Shown here one piece after another: positions 3,578 to 12,859 of a DNA stretch of 21,973 bases. Origin of the DNA: a virus; the IMG/VR virus record IMGVR_UViG_3300000956_000074, positions 1 through 21,973 of that record, one strand, 5' to 3'. Positions within the stretch are counted from its first letter, which is position 1; each line of letters opens with the position of its first letter. The position numbers and the translations under genes are program-made. Below the pieces are notes generated by a model. The model saw only the letters and a list, made by a program, of their open reading frames with translations. It ran no database searches and was not told the DNA's origin.

Positions 3578-5557
3578 ATGGCATACGACGCAGCACAAGC
3601 CAACAAGCAGGCACCCATAGCCAAGGGCATTGACCCGGATGAGGTGCTGAAAGAGTTCACCGAGCGCTTCCCGCAGGCTAAGCAGCACCAGCGTGAGCAC
3701 CGGCACGAGTCGCGAGAACTCTACGACCTGAAAGCGGGCCGGCAGATGACGGATGTGGAGCGCGCTGCGGTTCGTCAGAAGTACAACGGCTCCTATCCCG
3801 AGATCGCTTTCAACGTCACCGACAAGTATTGCTCGGCGGTCGACGGGCTTCAGATCAACAACAGGCAGGAGATCAAGTATTTCCCTCGTGAGGAGGGCGA
3901 CGCCGGCATCGATGAGTTCTCAACCGGCATAGTCAAGTGGTGCCGCGACCAGAGCGAGGCCGAGGATGAGGAAACGGATGCGTTTGGCGATGTGTTCCTC
4001 ACCGGCATTGCCTGGGTAGAGCATTTCCTCGAGGATGAGGAGGACCCGGAAGCGCCATATATCGGGCAGAACCGCGTGGATCCGCTGGAGATGTACTACG
4101 ACGGCACGGCACGCAAGAAAAACCTGGTTGACCGCGCTTACGACATCCGCCTGAAAGCATTCACTGATTCCGAGTTCGAGGACAAGTTCGGCGAGGAAGC
4201 CTGGGGCATGTTCGACACGCCAGATGAAGGCACCGTCGAGCACGTCAGCCAGCCAGATGATTACGGGACGGGCAAACCCGGATCCAATCAGCCCAAGCGC
4301 ATCTACGTCGCCGACTATCAGTTCTGCCGCACCGTGCAGCACTGGATCGTGACGGCGCAATTGCCGAATCCGGACACCGGCCAAGTCGAGCAAATGCGTG
4401 AACTGGTGGACAAATCCACGTGGCGCTCCATGAAACAAGCGCTGGTGGTCTCAGGCATCCCTTACGAGTCAGAGAAGGTCTCCAAGCGTTGCTACTACCG
4501 TGCCTGGATTCGCCAGGACAAGATCCTGGGCAAGGTGCGTGAGCTCAAGTGCGGCTTTACGCGCGAGGCCATCACCGGAAAGCGCGATCGCAACACGAAC
4601 ACTTGGTACGGCATGGGCCGGGTGATCAAAGACCCGCAGCTGTGGCTAAACAAGTTCTTCGCATCGATCTTGTATACGCTGATGGTGAACGCCAAGGGCG
4701 GGTTGATGGCCGAGGAAGGCGCATTCGAGGACACAAACAAGGCCGAGGCCGAGTGGGCCAATCCCGCGGCGATCACCTGGACCGAAGCAGGTGCTATCTC
4801 TGGTGGCAAGATCCAGCCTAAGCCGCCCGCGCCGTATCCGCAGGGCATGGATCGGCTCATGGAGTTCACGCTTCAGCTGATGCCGCTGACATCGGGGATG
4901 AATCCCGAACTGCTGGGCCTCGCTGACCGTCAGCAGGCCGGCGTACTCGAGGCGCAGCGCAAGCAGGCCGCCATGGCAATCATCGCCTGGGTGTTTGACG
5001 CCATGCGTCGCTACTACAAGCGCAGTGGCAGGCTGATGCTCTCGATGATTCGCGAGTACCTGAGCGAGGGGCAGCTGATCCGCATCTCTGGCGAGGGCGG
5101 ACAGAAGTACGTGCGGCTCATCAAGGACAAACTCGTCGCCAAGTTCGACACCATCGTCGATGAATCGCCAACCAGCGTGAACATGCAAGAGCGCGCATGG
5201 GCTGCGCTGCGTGAGGCTGTGCCGCTCGGCGCGCAACTCGGTGCACCACCGCCGCCCTCAGCGATCAAGTACATCCCAGGGTTGCCGGCGGACTTCAAGG
5301 CCGAGTGGCAGAAGTCCATCGAGGATCCACAGAAGCAGCAGCAGGCCCAGGAGGGTGCGCAGCTGCAAAAGCAGGAGCTGAAAGCCAAGATCGCCAAGGA
5401 TCAGACGCAGGCGCAGCTCAACACTGCCAAGGCGCAGCAGATCAGCACGGAGACGCAGCTGGATGCGAATTCGCGGCCGATCTCGGATGCGCTGACGCAG
5501 ATGCAGACCGTGAAGGAAGCCGCGAACGCGGGCTCGATACAGGCCGGTGGCGCATGA
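3578..5557 (+). CDS. Portal protein, P22-like family
   Basis: This 659-residue protein has the size and layout of P22-type portals, which form the dodecameric ring at the DNA-entry vertex. Its features are a helical N-terminus, an ERAAVRQKYNGSYPEIAFN segment (about 61-79) that precedes the core, an acidic patch around 105-150 and a conserved VDPLEMYYDG stretch near 166-175. The last 90 residues are Gln/Ala/Lys-rich and predicted to be helical and coiled, consistent with the barrel helix above the ring. ATG 3578 directly follows the terminase TAA with no good SD, so translation is probably coupled. The stop overlaps the next start as ATGA. Order terS-terL-portal-scaffold-capsid is canonical. 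Confidence 0.93.
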   Translation: MAYDAAQANKQAPIAKGIDPDEVLKEFTERFPQAKQHQREHRHESRELYDLKAGRQMTDVERAAVRQKYNGSYPEIAFNVTDKYCSAVDGLQINNRQEIKYFPREEGDAGIDEFSTGIVKWCRDQSEAEDEETDAFGDVFLTGIAWVEHFLEDEEDPEAPYIGQNRVDPLEMYYDGTARKKNLVDRAYDIRLKAFTDSEFEDKFGEEAWGMFDTPDEGTVEHVSQPDDYGTGKPGSNQPKRIYVADYQFCRTVQHWIVTAQLPNPDTGQVEQMRELVDKSTWRSMKQALVVSGIPYESEKVSKRCYYRAWIRQDKILGKVRELKCGFTREAITGKRDRNTNTWYGMGRVIKDPQLWLNKFFASILYTLMVNAKGGLMAEEGAFEDTNKAEAEWANPAAITWTEAGAISGGKIQPKPPAPYPQGMDRLMEFTLQLMPLTSGMNPELLGLADRQQAGVLEAQRKQAAMAIIAWVFDAMRRYYKRSGRLMLSMIREYLSEGQLIRISGEGGQKYVRLIKDKLVAKFDTIVDESPTSVNMQERAWAALREAVPLGAQLGAPPPPSAIKYIPGLPADFKAEWQKSIEDPQKQQQAQEGAQLQKQELKAKIAKDQTQAQLNTAKAQQISTETQLDANSRPISDALTQMQTVKEAANAGSIQAGGA

Positions 5558-5733
5558 AGATCATCAAGTTCGACAACTGCGCGTTTGTAGCGAGTTACAT
5601 CGTCAGTTGGGAAAAACTGCAGGACGGTCGGCTCCGAATCCATCTAGAAGGCGGCAGGTCGGCCGACGTCGATCTCGAGTTCGATGAGTTCTGTAAGGCA
5701 ATGGAAAAACATTTCGTTCAGGCCGGAGTTTGA
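5554..5733 (+). CDS. Small protein between portal and scaffold (59 aa)
   Basis: ATG 5554 sits in an ATGA overlap with the portal stop, and the frame runs 59 codons to TGA 5731. The product is mildly acidic, with alternating beta-prone segments (SYIVSWEKL, GRLRIHLEGG) and a C-terminal helix. It may form a small beta-sheet fold. I see no known motif. The frame is open further upstream inside the portal gene, but the junction and size favour 5554. Tiny genes in this position are common in phage head operons and are mostly uncharacterised. Confidence 0.6.
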   Translation: MKIIKFDNCAFVASYIVSWEKLQDGRLRIHLEGGRSADVDLEFDEFCKAMEKHFVQAGV

Positions 5734-5734
5734 T

Positions 5735-5947
5735 ATGTCGATCTCAATTACCGGTATCAGCGCACAGGTGACTACCGCAGCGAGCGATCACCTGCTGATA
5801 CTTTCAATCAGGTGCGGCGACTGGCTGGGGCCGACCGCGTATGTGCAGTGGGATTCGAGTTCCACCGCTGACACGGTGGCCAACAAACTTCGGGAACTCG
5901 CCGATATGGTCTTGAAGGTCGCGCCATTACACATGAGGGAGGCCTGA
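5735..5947 (+). CDS. Small protein upstream of scaffold (70 aa)
   Basis: ATG 5735 has GGAG at 5725-5728 six bases upstream and follows the previous stop by one base. The 70-residue product has beta-prone N-terminal strands (ISITGISAQV) and an amphipathic helix (DTVANKLRELADMVLKVA, about residues 46-63). It has no signal or membrane segment. The tail of the gene supplies an AGGGAGG site (5936-5942) that serves the scaffold start at 5951. Function is not recognised; a minor head factor is possible by position only. Confidence 0.6.
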   Translation: MSISITGISAQVTTAASDHLLILSIRCGDWLGPTAYVQWDSSSTADTVANKLRELADMVLKVAPLHMREA

Positions 5948-5950
5948 TCC

Positions 5951-6853
5951 ATGTCCGCAGAACCCGCATTTTTCGCACAGTTGGCCGGAGGTGGAAGTGA
6001 ATCAGCAGCAGACCAATCAGGCGGCGGCGAGGCTGAGTCCGGCGCTGGAGCAAGTCCTGCAACAGAATCTTCTCAGGCACCGCCGGTGGCTGCTGCGCCA
6101 GCAGATACGGCAGGCAATGGAGCCAGTGCGCCGAGCGCTGAGCCTGTTGCAAGCAAACAAGCCGAGATCGACCGCAACCTTCAAGTCGCTCTGCGCGAAT
6201 CTCGTGCAGAGCTTAAGGAACTTCGTGCGGAACTGGCTCAACTGAAGGCGAGCCTCCCGCAGCCGGCGAAGGCCGAGACGCCAGCAGAGGAGGGCCCTGA
6301 CTTCTTGGCCGACCCCAAGGGCTATGTCGATGGCGTGAAGGGCGCCATCAAGAAGCTGGAGGATGACATCAAGGCCAAGGAGTCGACCCAGGCTGAGCAG
6401 GCTGAGCAGCAGAGGCAGGCGCAAGAGGCCTGGAGCAAGGTCCTGGAGTCCGAGGCCGCGTTCGCGGCTGCCACGCCTGATTATCACCAGGCGCTGGCTC
6501 ATGTACGCGGTGTCCGCACTCAGCAGCTGCAGCTGAGCCATCCGGACGCCACGCCCCAGCAGATCGCGCAGCAGATTCAGGCTGAGGAGTTCCAAGGCGC
6601 GGCTGCGCTACTCAAGCAGGGCAGGAACCCCAGCGAGTTCTACTACAACTACGCCAAGACGTTCGGGTACAAACCCGCTGCCCCACCTCCGCCGGCACTG
6701 GGCGCGAAGCCCGACAAGGACGCGGTACGCACCATGGGCAGCGGGGGCGGGGAGGGCACGCCCGAGGCAGAGGAAGTGCCGGAGGGCGTGATGCCAGAGT
6801 TTCTGCAGGCACGACGTGAGATGCAGGCGCAGTTCAAGCGCAGGTCGAAGTGA
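5951..6853 (+). CDS. Scaffolding protein
   Basis: This 300-residue protein helps capsid subunits assemble into a prohead and is normally released before DNA fills the head. It has the expected composition: a disordered Ala/Gly/Ser/Glu/Pro N-terminus (about 10-70), a strong coiled-coil (about 73-100, with RAELKELRAELAQLKASL), a charged Gln-rich helical middle, a segment with PSEFYYNYAKTFGY, and a short basic C-terminal helix (REMQAQFKRRSK). The basic tail resembles the coat-binding end of P22-type scaffolds. It lies between portal and capsid, as expected. The strong SD AGGGAGG is 8 bases before ATG 5951. Codon third positions are unusually AT-rich up to about base 6241 and then switch abruptly; see the overlapping frame at 5997-6245. 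Confidence 0.85.
   Translation: MSAEPAFFAQLAGGGSESAADQSGGGEAESGAGASPATESSQAPPVAAAPADTAGNGASAPSAEPVASKQAEIDRNLQVALRESRAELKELRAELAQLKASLPQPAKAETPAEEGPDFLADPKGYVDGVKGAIKKLEDDIKAKESTQAEQAEQQRQAQEAWSKVLESEAAFAAATPDYHQALAHVRGVRTQQLQLSHPDATPQQIAQQIQAEEFQGAAALLKQGRNPSEFYYNYAKTFGYKPAAPPPPALGAKPDKDAVRTMGSGGGEGTPEAEEVPEGVMPEFLQARREMQAQFKRRSK
5997..6245 (+). CDS. Candidate overlapping gene inside the scaffold gene (82 aa)
   Basis: A second frame opens with GTG 5997, five bases after a perfect GGAGG (5987-5991), and runs 82 codons to TGA 6243-6245. The product is strongly basic by count (11 Arg, 2 Lys, 2 Glu) and rich in Leu and Gln. It looks like amphipathic helices (for example LRHRRWLLRQQIRQ at 26-39), with no transmembrane segment. 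The SD lies in TTGGCCGGAGG, the same leader that precedes the glycosyltransferase and methyltransferase starts. In this interval the scaffold frame has G or C at only 34 of 81 third positions, against 34 of 39 directly after the stop. Both frames look protein-like. The alternative is an ordinary shadow frame in a low-complexity region with atypical codons, since the low GC3 begins at the scaffold start itself. Confidence 0.4.
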   Translation: MNQQQTNQAAARLSPALEQVLQQNLLRHRRWLLRQQIRQAMEPVRRALSLLQANKPRSTATFKSLCANLVQSLRNFVRNWLN

Positions 6854-7194
6854 TGGATGAAAATCTTGCCAATAATCATGGACTTTATGAACGGTATAGG
6901 GAAGTTCCTAAAGCCGAAGTCTGGGAAGTCATAAGGGACAATCTCAATAGGTCCTGGCTTCCCTCATTTGAGAAGCAATATCCAGGGGCAGCAGATGATG
7001 AGCGATGCGCTCTTAGGGTTGCCAGAATCATAGCGATCTTCGGTATCCAATATCGAAAATACGACTTCGACAAGTTCGTAGCTGAAACATGCTCATCCAT
7101 GAGACAGAAATCTGAAAAGGTGAGAAGACAACTCTTGAAAGCAGTGGAGGCCATTGAGCAATCAGAAGGGTTCTCTTCTGTTGCCTATTTGTAG
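6853..7194 (+). CDS. AT-rich accessory gene between scaffold and capsid (113 aa)
   Basis: ATG 6853 overlaps the scaffold stop (TGATG). The 113-residue product is a charged, helical, soluble protein with a cluster of aromatic residues (FGIQYRKYDFDKF, about 62-75) and a coiled C-terminal third. I recognise no family. By hand count the gene is about 44% GC, while neighbouring head genes are near 60%. It uses AT-ending and AGG/AGA codons that the neighbours mostly avoid. This suggests a recently gained moron-type gene inserted between two genes that are normally adjacent. It ends at TAG 7192 and is followed by the structured capsid leader. Confidence 0.65.
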   Translation: MDENLANNHGLYERYREVPKAEVWEVIRDNLNRSWLPSFEKQYPGAADDERCALRVARIIAIFGIQYRKYDFDKFVAETCSSMRQKSEKVRRQLLKAVEAIEQSEGFSSVAYL

Positions 7195-7369: not shown

Positions 7370-8458
7370 ATGGCAGATACCGATTACCCAGTAAATTCGC
7401 CTTTAGCCGTCAAGCGCTGGGCGTCAGAGCTCATGAAGGAGTCTCTGAAAAAGACCCATGCCCAACAGTTCATGGGCACTGACAGCAACTCCCTCATCCA
7501 GATCAAAACCGAACTGAACAAGGGTCCGGGCGACCGCCTGACCTTTGGCATTCGCCAGCAATTGCAGGGTGCGGGTGTCTCCGGCGACAACACGCTGGAA
7601 GGCAACGAAGAGGCCCTGATCACCTACACTCAGAATCTCACCATCAACCAGCTGCGCCACGCGGTGCGCAGTAACGGCAAGATGTCCGAGCAGCGCGTGC
7701 CGTTCACGGTGCGCAATGAGGCCCGAGACGGTCTCGCCGATTGGTGGTCCGACCGATGGGACGCCTGGTTTTTCAACCAGATCACCGGGAACACACAGGT
7801 CACCGATGAGAAGTATTTTGGCTTCAACACGCTGAATGCTCCGGACTCGGGACACATGATCCTAGGGAACATCGGTCCGGCGGTTTCCTCGGGCATCGTG
7901 GCGCTCGCGGAAGCTTCATTGTCTGCCACCAGCACTGCGCGCTTTCATCTGGGCCTGATAGACCGGGCGCGCGAACGCGCAGCACTTGCGGTCAATACTT
8001 TCCGCCCGATCATGGTCGACGGGCAGAAGCGCTACGTCGCTTTCCTGCATCCCTACCAAGTCACGAGCCTGCGCCAGAGCGTCGCCAGCACGCAGTGGTC
8101 AGACATCCAATTGGCTGCGCTGTCCGCTCGCAATGAATCCGACAACCCGCTCTACAGTGGCGCGCTTGGCATCTACAACGACACCGTGTTGCATGTCTCC
8201 ACGCGCATCCCGCTGGTCGTGGGAGCAACAGCGGGCACACTCAATGTCGCACGCGCTGCCTTCTGCGGTGCTCAGGCGGCCTGCATGGGCTTTGGCCAGG
8301 GCTACGGCAAGAGTTCGATGGATTGGAACGAGGAGCTGTTCGACTACAAGAACAAGCTTGGTGTCGAGGCGGGCTGCATTGGCGGCATCGTCAAGACTCG
8401 ATTCAACGGTAGCGATTTCGCCGCCATGACGATGAGCACGTACGAGGTGGCAAGCTAA
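7370..8458 (+). CDS. Major capsid protein, N4-gp56 family
   Basis: This 362-residue protein forms the head shell. The N-terminus is diagnostic: NSPLAVKRWASELMKES (about 9-25), a GTDSNSLIQ segment (36-44) and KGPGDRLTFGIR (about 51-62), followed by a G-x-x-x-GNEE-type turn and strands with TINQLRHAVR. This is the pattern of the N4-gp56 type HK97-fold capsid family. The family varies around 320-420 residues, so it appears complete. ATG 7370 lies just after the inverted repeat and has only a weak GAG upstream, so translation may depend on unfolding of that stem. The stop overlaps the next ATG (TAATG), giving coupled expression with the probable decoration protein. Confidence 0.93.
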   Translation: MADTDYPVNSPLAVKRWASELMKESLKKTHAQQFMGTDSNSLIQIKTELNKGPGDRLTFGIRQQLQGAGVSGDNTLEGNEEALITYTQNLTINQLRHAVRSNGKMSEQRVPFTVRNEARDGLADWWSDRWDAWFFNQITGNTQVTDEKYFGFNTLNAPDSGHMILGNIGPAVSSGIVALAEASLSATSTARFHLGLIDRARERAALAVNTFRPIMVDGQKRYVAFLHPYQVTSLRQSVASTQWSDIQLAALSARNESDNPLYSGALGIYNDTVLHVSTRIPLVVGATAGTLNVARAAFCGAQAACMGFGQGYGKSSMDWNEELFDYKNKLGVEAGCIGGIVKTRFNGSDFAAMTMSTYEVAS

Positions 8459-10478: not shown

Positions 10479-11051
10479 GTGTCTCACGAATTTCAATCAC
10501 CGCTGCGCAGATGGGACGTCGTAGCTGGCCTGTGCCAGTCGATCGATGCGCGCACGTATGTTGAGGTTGGGTGCAAAGATGGGAGGACGACGGGACACGT
10601 GCTCGCTCAATGCCCCAACCTCCGCGCCATCGCGATTGATCCTTGGTGCGTGTCGCCGCCTGGCGGGGATGGTTCACGTGAAACATACGAGAATTGGGAC
10701 TTTGCCAAGATCGAGTCGGAGTTTTGGAAGAACTTAGGAGAGAACAAGGACAGGTGCGAACAGGCTCGCTGCACATCAGCACAAGCAAGCGGTTTCTGGG
10801 TCAATCCGGAATCCCAGGGTGTCGATGTTGTTTTCATCGACGCCCTGCACGACTACGAGAGCGTTAAGCAGGATATCGCGCTGTGGTGGCCGCGAGTGCG
10901 CCCCGGTGGCTATCTCTGCGGCCACGACTTCAACCACCGCTGGCCTGGCGTAGAGCGTGCCGTCGCAGAGCATTTCAACCTGATGGACGTGGGCCTAGCC
11001 CCTGACTCTGTGTGGTTCGTGCGCAAGCCTGCGCTGGCGGTGGCCGCATGA
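10479..11051 (+). CDS. Class I SAM-dependent methyltransferase (Methyltransf_24-like)
   Basis: This 190-residue protein transfers a methyl group from S-adenosylmethionine. It shows motif I VEVGCKDGRTT (28-38), an acidic strand end IDP (53-55), and the family signature FIDALHDYESVKQDI (119-133), then RPGGYLCGHDF (141-151). This is the pattern of the small Rossmann-fold methyltransferases often found in sugar and surface-glycan clusters. The target is not visible in the sequence; a sugar hydroxyl installed by the neighbouring glycosyltransferases is the simplest inference. GTG 10479 follows a strong SD. The stop overlaps the next glycosyltransferase start by ATGA, which ties the two activities together. 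Confidence 0.85.
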   Translation: MSHEFQSPLRRWDVVAGLCQSIDARTYVEVGCKDGRTTGHVLAQCPNLRAIAIDPWCVSPPGGDGSRETYENWDFAKIESEFWKNLGENKDRCEQARCTSAQASGFWVNPESQGVDVVFIDALHDYESVKQDIALWWPRVRPGGYLCGHDFNHRWPGVERAVAEHFNLMDVGLAPDSVWFVRKPALAVAA

Positions 11052-11800
11052 CTCGCTCAACGTACGCCTACTGGATCCGCGGCCGCGAATTCGCCGAGCT
11101 CGCCGCCAAATCCATAGAGAGCATCAAGCGGTTCGATCGGTTCATGGTGGACCGGCGCTTTGTGGTAGTCACTGACGATCCGCCTGAGGTTGTCGGCGAT
11201 AGCATCCAAGCCCCATGGCGCGATGTGTTCACGCGAGACGTCGAGATCCACCTGATCGGCCGCGGTCACCGGCCGGCGATGGTTGCGAATCTCGATGCTC
11301 AGATCGAGGTGCTGCACAACACGCCATCGGGCGAACGCGTGCTCTTCCTGGACGCCGACACCATCTGCCTCCAGCCCTTTCCCTGGACCGACGCAGACAT
11401 CCACGCCACGTGGCGCACTGATGTCAACGGCGATACAGAGATGGCTCGCCAGCAGCCTTGGAACTATGGAGTGCTGGGCGTGAACGTCACGCCGGCAACC
11501 ATCGAGGCTTTCTACTGGCTGCGCGCCCGCATCCTGCGCATGACGCCCGAGCGTCAGAAGTGGTACGGAAACCAGCTGGCGCTGGAACAGTTGCTGGGCC
11601 AGCCAAACGGCGGCAAGGAGCGGCGAATTCGCTGGACCCTGGAGGATGAGGGCATGCCGCTGACCGTCGAGGAGTTGCCGTGCTCGGTTTGGAACTACTC
11701 GCCGAGCACTGCCGATGAGGATGTGAGCGACAAGGGCATATTGCACTTCAAAGGCGGGCGTAAGGATCTGATCGAGGCTTACACGAGGGCGGCGGCATGA
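11048..11800 (+). CDS. GT-A type glycosyltransferase
   Basis: This 250-residue protein has a GT-A fold pattern. An N-terminal beta/alpha unit includes FVVVTDDP (38-45), then VLFLDADTICLQ (98-109) carries the D-x-D metal and nucleotide-sugar motif (D102, D104). WNYGVLGVN (138-146) looks like the acceptor loop, and ILHFKG (231-236) places a C-terminal His as in GT8-like enzymes. There is no signal or membrane anchor, so it acts in the cytoplasm. ATG 11048 overlaps the methyltransferase stop. It and the gene at 12122 are two different GT-A enzymes with little apparent similarity beyond the DxD and His motifs, suggesting sequential additions of different sugars. Confidence 0.82.
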   Translation: MTRSTYAYWIRGREFAELAAKSIESIKRFDRFMVDRRFVVVTDDPPEVVGDSIQAPWRDVFTRDVEIHLIGRGHRPAMVANLDAQIEVLHNTPSGERVLFLDADTICLQPFPWTDADIHATWRTDVNGDTEMARQQPWNYGVLGVNVTPATIEAFYWLRARILRMTPERQKWYGNQLALEQLLGQPNGGKERRIRWTLEDEGMPLTVEELPCSVWNYSPSTADEDVSDKGILHFKGGRKDLIEAYTRAAA

Positions 11801-11931
11801 AGCGCATAGCCACAGTCCTGCTGCTCCTCGCGCTCAGCGCCTGCGCCAATCACTGCCGCATCGACCAGACGCCGCCGGCTGATGCGACGTTTGAGGACAC
11901 CGAGCGGATGACGCGGGAGGAGTGCAAGTGA
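11797..11931 (+). CDS. 44-residue lipoprotein
   Basis: ATG 11797 lies in an ATGA overlap with the glycosyltransferase stop, and the frame ends at TGA 11929. The product has a textbook lipoprotein signal: KR at 2-3, a Leu-rich core and lipobox LSAC at 13-16. The mature peptide is 29 residues, starts CANHC and is acidic at its end. Ala at +2 predicts outer-membrane sorting by the Lol rule. Small phage lipoproteins can block superinfection by binding a receptor or can be outer-membrane spanins. There is no adjacent Rz-like partner and few prolines, so the spanin reading is weak. Its position inside the cassette hints at an infected-cell surface role. Confidence 0.72.
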   Translation: MKRIATVLLLLALSACANHCRIDQTPPADATFEDTERMTREECK

Positions 11932-12125
11932 CCGCTCACGAACTCGCCAAACTACTACTCGCGGGGCCAGACCTGCCTCTGATCCATTCAGATTCAGAGT
12001 ATGGATTTTCACTATTCGATGGAACTCTGCCAGAGATCTCCAGAGACAGTGCGATATATGACTGCAACTATGGCCGTGAAGCGCGGGAAGCGCTGAAGCA
12101 GCATGAGAGGTACATTTCCTTATGA
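11928..12125 (+). CDS. Small phage protein (65 aa) of unknown function
   Basis: GTG 11928 is preceded by GGGAGG (11915-11920) seven bases upstream and overlaps the lipoprotein stop as GTGA. A GTG at 11922 is in frame but too close to the SD. The sequence opens with an amphipathic helix and a PDLPL turn (TAHELAKLLLAGPDLPLI), a pattern seen in many uncharacterised small phage proteins, followed by a Tyr/Asp-rich centre and a helical tail. GC is about 50% by hand count, lower than the neighbours, and falls to about 42% in the middle third. It is coupled to the next glycosyltransferase by ATGA. Confidence 0.65.
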   Translation: MTAHELAKLLLAGPDLPLIHSDSEYGFSLFDGTLPEISRDSAIYDCNYGREAREALKQHERYISL

Positions 12126-12859
12126 AGCCGCTACGCGTTTTCATCGGTGTGGACTCTCGCCAGCCGGTGGCATTCAACATCGCGCAGGCCAGCATATGGC
12201 GCCATTGCAGCAGACCTGTGAGCATCACGCCCTTGGTGCTTCAGACCCTGCCAATCGATCGACGCGGGCTTACCGAATTCAGTGTGAGCCGGTATCTGGT
12301 GCCATGGCTGTGCGACTTCGAGGGCCATGCCTTGTTCGTGGACGGTGATGTGCTGTGCATGGGTGACATCGCGGAACTGCCATGGGACAGCGAGCATGCG
12401 GTGAGCGTGGTCAAGCACGAAACCGTGATGAAGAACGGCAAGGAGGTTGACGTTGGGTTCGAGCGGCCCTCGGTGATGCTGTTCAACTGCGCAAAGTGCA
12501 CGCCGCTGACACCGCAGTTAGTGGAGAGCGGCAAGCCTCACAACTTGCAATGGGCGCAGAGCATTGGAGAACTGCTTCCAGAGTGGAACTTCCTGGTTGG
12601 CTACGATCACCGGAACCACATGAAGTTCAGGCGTGGTGGGCCACTTGATGCGGTGAAGATCAAGCTCGCCCACTTCACGATGGGGCTGCCGATCTTCGAG
12701 CAGACCAAGGGTGACGAATACGCCGCTGAGTACGCGCGCGAGATGGAACTCGCCGGCACCACCTGCAGCTGGGAAGACATCATGGGCGACAGCGTGCACG
12801 CCAAGTGGAAAGCACCGCCCGCAATCGCATCGTTCCTGAAGCTCCAGGGCTTTGGATGA
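12122..12859 (+). CDS. GT8-like GT-A glycosyltransferase
   Basis: This is a 245-residue protein. Family marks are FIGVDSRQP (7-15) at the nucleotide-binding start, TEFSVSRYLVPWLC (51-64), ALFVDGDVLCMGDIAEL (70-86) with the D-x-D pair D74/D76, and the late LAHFTMGLP (182-190) with a His that usually helps bind the metal. This set matches a GT-A family common in phage and surface-sugar loci. No anchor is seen, so it should use a cytoplasmic nucleotide sugar, presumably from the host, because no sugar-nucleotide synthesis gene is nearby. ATG 12122 overlaps the preceding stop. It is the last gene of the accessory cassette; a stem-loop follows before the tail genes. Confidence 0.85.
   Translation: MKPLRVFIGVDSRQPVAFNIAQASIWRHCSRPVSITPLVLQTLPIDRRGLTEFSVSRYLVPWLCDFEGHALFVDGDVLCMGDIAELPWDSEHAVSVVKHETVMKNGKEVDVGFERPSVMLFNCAKCTPLTPQLVESGKPHNLQWAQSIGELLPEWNFLVGYDHRNHMKFRRGGPLDAVKIKLAHFTMGLPIFEQTKGDEYAAEYAREMELAGTTCSWEDIMGDSVHAKWKAPPAIASFLKLQGFG

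Follow-up and report, generated by a model that had tools for sequence, protein, structure and literature searches.

The window analysed here is an entire IMG/VR virus record of 21,973 b, which is probably a genome fragment. Its plus strand carries a portal protein gene of the P22 type (3578..5557; PF16510, E=1e-78; phrog_156, E=7e-77), a putative scaffold gene (5951..6853; 300 aa, starting at ATG 5951) and the gene of a major capsid protein (Phage_capsid_3; 7370..8458; PF13252, E=8e-68; phrog_334, E=6e-82). None of the named scaffold families in PHROGs and Pfam matched the middle gene by sequence, and its sole match was phrog_24697, a family without known function (E=5e-5). The label "scaffold" therefore rests on synteny and composition. 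The gene sits between portal and major capsid protein, a place shared by 76 homologues, and like other tailed-phage scaffolds it combines an acidic, disordered N-terminus with a coiled coil. In full, its layout comprises an N-terminal motif, a disordered Ala/Gly/Glu/Pro linker, the coiled coil and a conserved C-terminal part.

When the window's scaffold was used as a single-protein query, no relatives were found in IMG/VR or in phage records. Searches with alignments of the major capsid protein, scaffold and portal gathered approximately 270 loci, of which L177 and L178 are the nearest relatives (portal 59% and scaffold 46% identical). The portal-scaffold gap of the window holds two small ORFs, 5554-5733 (GC 0.51) and 5735-5947, without homologue in these loci; in several relatives the scaffold begins almost directly after the portal. 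Between scaffold and major capsid protein lies ORF 6850-7194 (114 aa), with GC and GC3 both at 0.44, whereas the GC of the phage is about 0.60. It had no homologue in the fetched loci and looks like a recently acquired gene. Methyltransferase- and glycosyltransferase-like ORFs, judged by eye, occur at 10479-12859 within the structural module.

Inside the scaffold gene, a second frame, +1 relative to the scaffold, is open from upstream of 5951 through to a TGA at 6243-6245 (scaffold CTG AAG). Starting from GTG (5997-5999), 46 nt after the scaffold ATG, it would encode a basic protein (+11) of 82 aa (5997..6245, plus strand). A Shine-Dalgarno-like GGAGG (5987..5991), which doubles as a Gly-Gly pair of the scaffold, precedes this GTG with a 5-nt spacer, and an alternative in-frame GTG (5991..5993; 84 aa) overlaps it. 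The original prediction had named the start, the GGAGG five bases upstream, the length of 82 residues and the stop, and every coordinate was right. AlphaFold2, run on the single sequence, placed helices at residues 3-53 and 59-81 (pLDDT 76).

We compared these features with what chance alone gives. Open +1 ORFs of 84 codons or more arose with P=0.32 in synonymous shuffles and P=0.50 in codon-order shuffles. The length is thus at chance level because +1 stops require Leu, Val, Ile or Met codons, which are absent from the linker. A Shine-Dalgarno-led +1 ORF of at least 60 codons appeared in 2% of synonymous shuffles with genome codons and in 21% of those with the gene's own codons. The +1 translations of 77/77 scaffold N-terminal regions were positive, with a mean of +25 per approximately 100 codons; the charge of the window ORF (+10, compared to +19 predicted from genome-codon shuffles) is less basic than chance. 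Length, openness, Shine-Dalgarno sequence and basic charge of the +1 frame therefore carry no weight, as all are at chance level for an Ala/Glu/Gly-rich scaffold. The product had also been described beforehand as very basic and amphipathic-helical. The amphipathicity held (P=0.0005, see below), but the basic charge is the chance default of the +1 frame. Nor is a basic partner within an acidic scaffold supported as a general property, since the corresponding products of relatives carry charges of -4 to +2.

The third codon positions of the scaffold frame are more informative. A recount gave G or C at 35/82 of them over 5997-6245 and at 33/39 over 6246-6365, close to the 34/81 and 34/39 counted originally. 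Amino-acid content does not account for the drop (stratified test, p=1e-10). By maximum likelihood, GC3 changes at 6242 (2-lnL interval 6233-6251), confirming that the break coincides with the stop of the second frame. Overall, GC3 was 0.43 in the first 98 codons and 0.81 in the remainder, and the only equally low 82-codon stretch elsewhere was in the small ORF 6850-7194. The caveat that low GC3 precedes 5997 is also correct, as GC3 was 7/15 in 5951-5996, that is, from the scaffold ATG on.

The coiled-coil codons 78-97 of the scaffold (6182..6241, plus strand) separate the effect of the ORF from that of the protein domain, as they lie within the +1 ORF in the window and beyond it in the relatives. 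Here GC3 was 7/20 in the window, compared to 19/24 in L177, 18/24 in L178, 19/24 in L170 and 20/24 in L173 (Fisher p=0.005 against L177; p=0.0009 against L177, L170, L173 and L010 pooled). The values for L179 (13/24) and L181 (12/24) were less clear, overall GC3 being lower there. These contrasts indicate that low GC3 tracks the ORF and not the domain. The GC3 argument for overprinting thus stands against controls.

The scaffold frame itself is conserved through the overlap. It aligns with homologues at the N-terminus (MSAEPAFFAQL in the window versus MSSNAEFISSL in a homologue) and across codons 78-97, and it matches L177 on either side of the codon-usage break (ALRESRAELKELRAEL versus ALREARGEIKALRQQI). 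Since scaffold homology continues across the break, a general frameshift or an assembly error could be rejected, and both frames appear to be coding, which supports overprinting over a frameshift, as originally proposed. The N-terminal parts of the scaffolds diverge fast among these loci.

To the coding statistics of the second frame we applied a codon score and a test for amphipathicity. The codon score of the window's +1 frame exceeded that of its host frame (D=+0.10), so that it is the +1 frame that carries the phage's own codon statistics. Confirmed portal, capsid and terminase genes supplied 448 control +1 ORFs of at least 50 codons, and not one of them beat its host (0/448); among scaffolds, this occurred only in the window, in the six members of the +1 family described below and in L198-L200. 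A within-zone codon-score shuffle (window P=0.025-0.03) was discarded because it has no power: confirmed family members gave P=0.25-0.88.

In shuffles that preserved both the scaffold protein and the codon set of the zone, the hydrophobic moment of the window's +1 product at 100 degrees was exceeded with P=0.0005 on three scales, a result that rests on one sequence and on a test picked after the claim of amphipathicity. Neither 60 nor 170 degrees gave an excess; prolines were scarcer than in shuffles (P=0.03). In 126 other scaffold ORFs, P from the same test fell below 0.05 in 4 cases and had a median of 0.48, as for a null; of the approximately 130 scaffold ORFs tested, the window had the lowest P, tied with L009. 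Both measures thus give the second frame coding statistics beyond the expectation from its host gene.

These results bear on the possibility that the ORF arose by chance, in a linker rich in Ala, Gly, Ser and Glu and without the Leu, Val, Ile and Met codons that give +1 stops, its Shine-Dalgarno sequence being just a Gly-Gly pair. Indeed, 32% of synonymous shuffles match its length, many scaffolds have long +1 ORFs, and +1 translations are all basic. However, such ORFs mostly score negative and under the host frame, whereas the window ORF scores positive and above its host, like the conserved family; its product is also less basic, poorer in prolines and more amphipathic than chance. A chance ORF with automatic basic charge was our first reading, and it was abandoned once closer relatives revealed a conserved +1 protein. 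We now regard it as very unlikely. The scaffold gene of the window is instead, judging from its sequence, probably overprinted by a +1-frame gene.

Six scaffolds in the collected loci, those of L170 (identical to L011), L171, L176, L173, L179 and L181, contain a +1 ORF of 62-64 codons at the same place. It starts 43 nt from the scaffold ATG in L170, L171, L176, L179 and L181, nearly the distance seen in the window (46 nt), and 28 nt from it in L173. The starts at 43 nt are ATG, ATG, GTG and GTG, with Shine-Dalgarno-like sequences in L179 and L181. Scaffold GC3 is low over these ORFs, which stop just short of the conserved coiled coil. The coincidence of the GC3 break with the +1 stop recurs in L170, L171, L173 and L181, all with a conserved +1 protein. 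Leave-one-out HMMs detected the +1 products of L170, L171, L173, L179 and L181 at 12-75 bits, and each member outscored the whole set of 500 synonymous shuffles made from its own scaffold. The products are near neutral (the charges of -4 to +2 given above), with an N-terminal long helix (AlphaFold2 pLDDT 83) and, on the C-terminal side, a Gly ahead of alternating hydrophobic residues (e.g., GHELTINLQLE). Searches of PHROGs, Pfam, PDB and Foldseek with the +1 proteins returned nothing above noise, and no free-standing homologue of the family was present in the collected loci.

Synonymous-site conservation, the check suggested with the original prediction, was assessed in these relatives, and third positions were more conserved inside the +1 ORF than downstream. 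In four comparisons, third-position identity inside versus downstream was 48/62 versus 117/237 (p=9e-5), 34/59 versus 78/237 (p=9e-4), 37/60 versus 88/237 (p=7e-4) and 35/57 versus 98/234 (p=0.01), and positions 1 and 2 showed no such rise. Between L170 and L171, scaffold residues vary more in the +1 zone (12-16/20 identical per block) and third positions less, whereas directly downstream 60/60 scaffold residues are identical and third positions vary freely. Accordingly, substitutions that are silent in the scaffold and change the +1 product amounted to 0.23 per site inside, compared to 0.50-0.87 downstream; those that change the scaffold and are silent in the +1 frame amounted to 0.19 inside, 0.01 in the adjacent segment and 0.15-0.29 further on. 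Only position-specific contrasts were used, because the comparison of N-terminal and downstream synonymous identity over all pairs is confounded by mosaicism. N-terminal synonymous conservation was also higher in some unrelated scaffold pairs, e.g., L019/L027, probably for this reason. From these comparisons, the relatives very probably carry an overlapping +1 gene.

The relationship of the window to this family is less close. Its product showed no detectable homology to the family profile (2.5 bits, P=0.11 against synonymous shuffles), none of the pairwise +1 alignments with single relatives was significant, and the two agree in position and overlap mode only. The window gene may therefore belong to the family and have diverged far from it, or have arisen separately at the same site. 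Homologues with an intact scaffold and a disrupted second frame, which had been named beforehand as speaking against the overlap, do occur in part: the scaffolds of L177 and L178 are intact but have stops in the +1 frame, and L010 is without the coding signature. This indicates that the +1 gene has been gained and lost and is not universal.

The scaffolds of L010 (3900-4775) and L173 (4001-4942) are sisters with 67% identity. The +1 gene is present in L173, and the linker of L010 is shorter and without a +1 coding signature; the difference is a candidate for a recent loss or gain. In a further group of scaffolds, L198 (3620-4549), L199 (3587-4549) and L200 (3183-4136), the GC3 contrast is sharper still, at 0.34-0.42 against 0.77-0.81, and +1 ORFs of 65-80 codons score above the scaffold frame. 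L198 and L199 are near-identical downstream, and their N-terminal linkers differ.

Low GC3 could also have entered with the scaffold itself, if its N-terminal third was imported from a lower-GC phage, or is less strict in its codon choice, with the open, protein-like +1 frame as a side effect of the low GC3. This would fit the low GC3 from the scaffold ATG on, including the 7/15 ahead of 5997, the small ORFs of odd composition on both sides of the scaffold (5554-5733, GC 0.51; 6850-7194, GC 0.44) and the fast divergence of scaffold N-terminal parts. However, low GC3 alone does not produce amphipathic periodicity, as the P of 0.0005 was obtained with the zone's own codons. In addition, the break falls on the +1 stop, within a coiled coil that is homologous to that of the relatives, and the same coincidence is found in L170, L171, L173 and L181 with their conserved +1 protein. 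We therefore consider such a mosaic origin unlikely, and overprinting remains our preferred explanation.

For the overprinted gene we propose the following scheme. The scaffold would be translated from ATG 5951, and ribosomes would initiate independently in the +1 frame at GTG 5997 (or 5991), behind the GGAGG; independent initiation is suggested by the Shine-Dalgarno sequence together with the equivalent starts in the family. The predicted product would be strongly amphipathic and all-helical, 82 residues long, and end at TGA 6243. The scaffold linker, being disordered and free in sequence, would tolerate a second frame, so that the third positions of the scaffold, which are the second positions of the +1 frame, could be selected for Leu, Gln, Asn and Val. 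With the usual GC-ending codons the +1 frame would read rich in Arg, Pro and Ser; with GCA, GCT, CTT, CAA and GAA it would read Gln, Leu, Asn and Val and form amphipathic helices. Which GTG serves as the start, that the frame is translated, and that the product is made together with the scaffold late in infection are inferences. Programmed frameshifting during scaffold translation might instead take ribosomes into the +1 frame, in which case the product would be fused to the first scaffold residues; the +1 frame is indeed open back through the scaffold start. The start codons of relatives at an equivalent place (43 nt) and the Shine-Dalgarno-like sequences in L179 and L181 argue against this, and we give frameshifting hardly any credence compared with independent initiation.

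What the product might do is more tentative. The maximum 19-residue Kyte-Doolittle mean is 0.51 for the window product and 0.05-0.46 for those of relatives, so there is no membrane-like segment, which makes a function in lysis like that of phiX174 E unlikely. The proposed co-expression with the scaffold points to a putative accessory of procapsid assembly, which perhaps binds scaffold, portal or capsid via its amphipathic helices; we put this forward as a possibility. It is likewise conceivable that the overlap is real and the product a putative accessory acting on the host, in counter-defence, superinfection exclusion or regulation. Many overprinted genes are accessories with a patchy distribution, as is seen here, but the +1 gene keeps to one site in the scaffold linker in different lineages, which speaks for expression together with the head proteins. 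Taking the assembly reading further, we tentatively suggest that this podophage-like lineage harbours an undescribed +1 family in the scaffold linker, with the window as a diverged or independent member. The linker might then be a repeated birthplace or refuge of overlapping genes, whose helical products would be made together with the scaffold and act in procapsid assembly.

In a limited literature search, we did not find a +1 gene nested in a tailed-phage scaffold gene. Same-strand genes that lie wholly inside another gene are familiar from small phages and viruses; in head genes of tailed dsDNA phages, to our knowledge, few are documented. Standard gene callers discard such genes, and standard annotation would usually miss the nested +1 family of the relatives. 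The codon-score contrast detects such overlaps from single genomes and was checked here on a family conserved between lineages. The ability of a disordered scaffold linker to carry a second gene would explain the coexistence of both frames, and the finding supplies an unexplained protein of the assembly module.

Nested genes have been known since phiX174, and the known cases share some of these traits. The D protein of phiX174 is an external scaffolding protein. In this member of the Microviridae, gene E is nested in gene D (PMC8227390). As in the window, a small gene lies wholly inside a head-assembly gene in another frame; however, phiX174 is an ssDNA phage and E a lysis protein with a membrane-spanning region, whereas the window product has no membrane-like segment. 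In the spanin genes of lambda-like phages, Rz1 is embedded in Rz as a +1-frame gene with its own start. The window resembles this case in coming from a tailed phage and holding a nested +1-frame gene, for which an own start is likewise proposed; Rz1, in contrast, is an outer-membrane lipoprotein of the lysis cassette, and the window has a scaffold gene and a soluble-looking helical product. In lambda, Nu3 lies within C, and in this and other nested scaffold genes a second product arises by internal initiation in a head gene. The internal start of Nu3 is in frame, so that the products share sequence, whereas the window uses a different frame. The order of portal, scaffold and major capsid protein in the window is that of P22-type head modules (PF16510, Phage_capsid_3).
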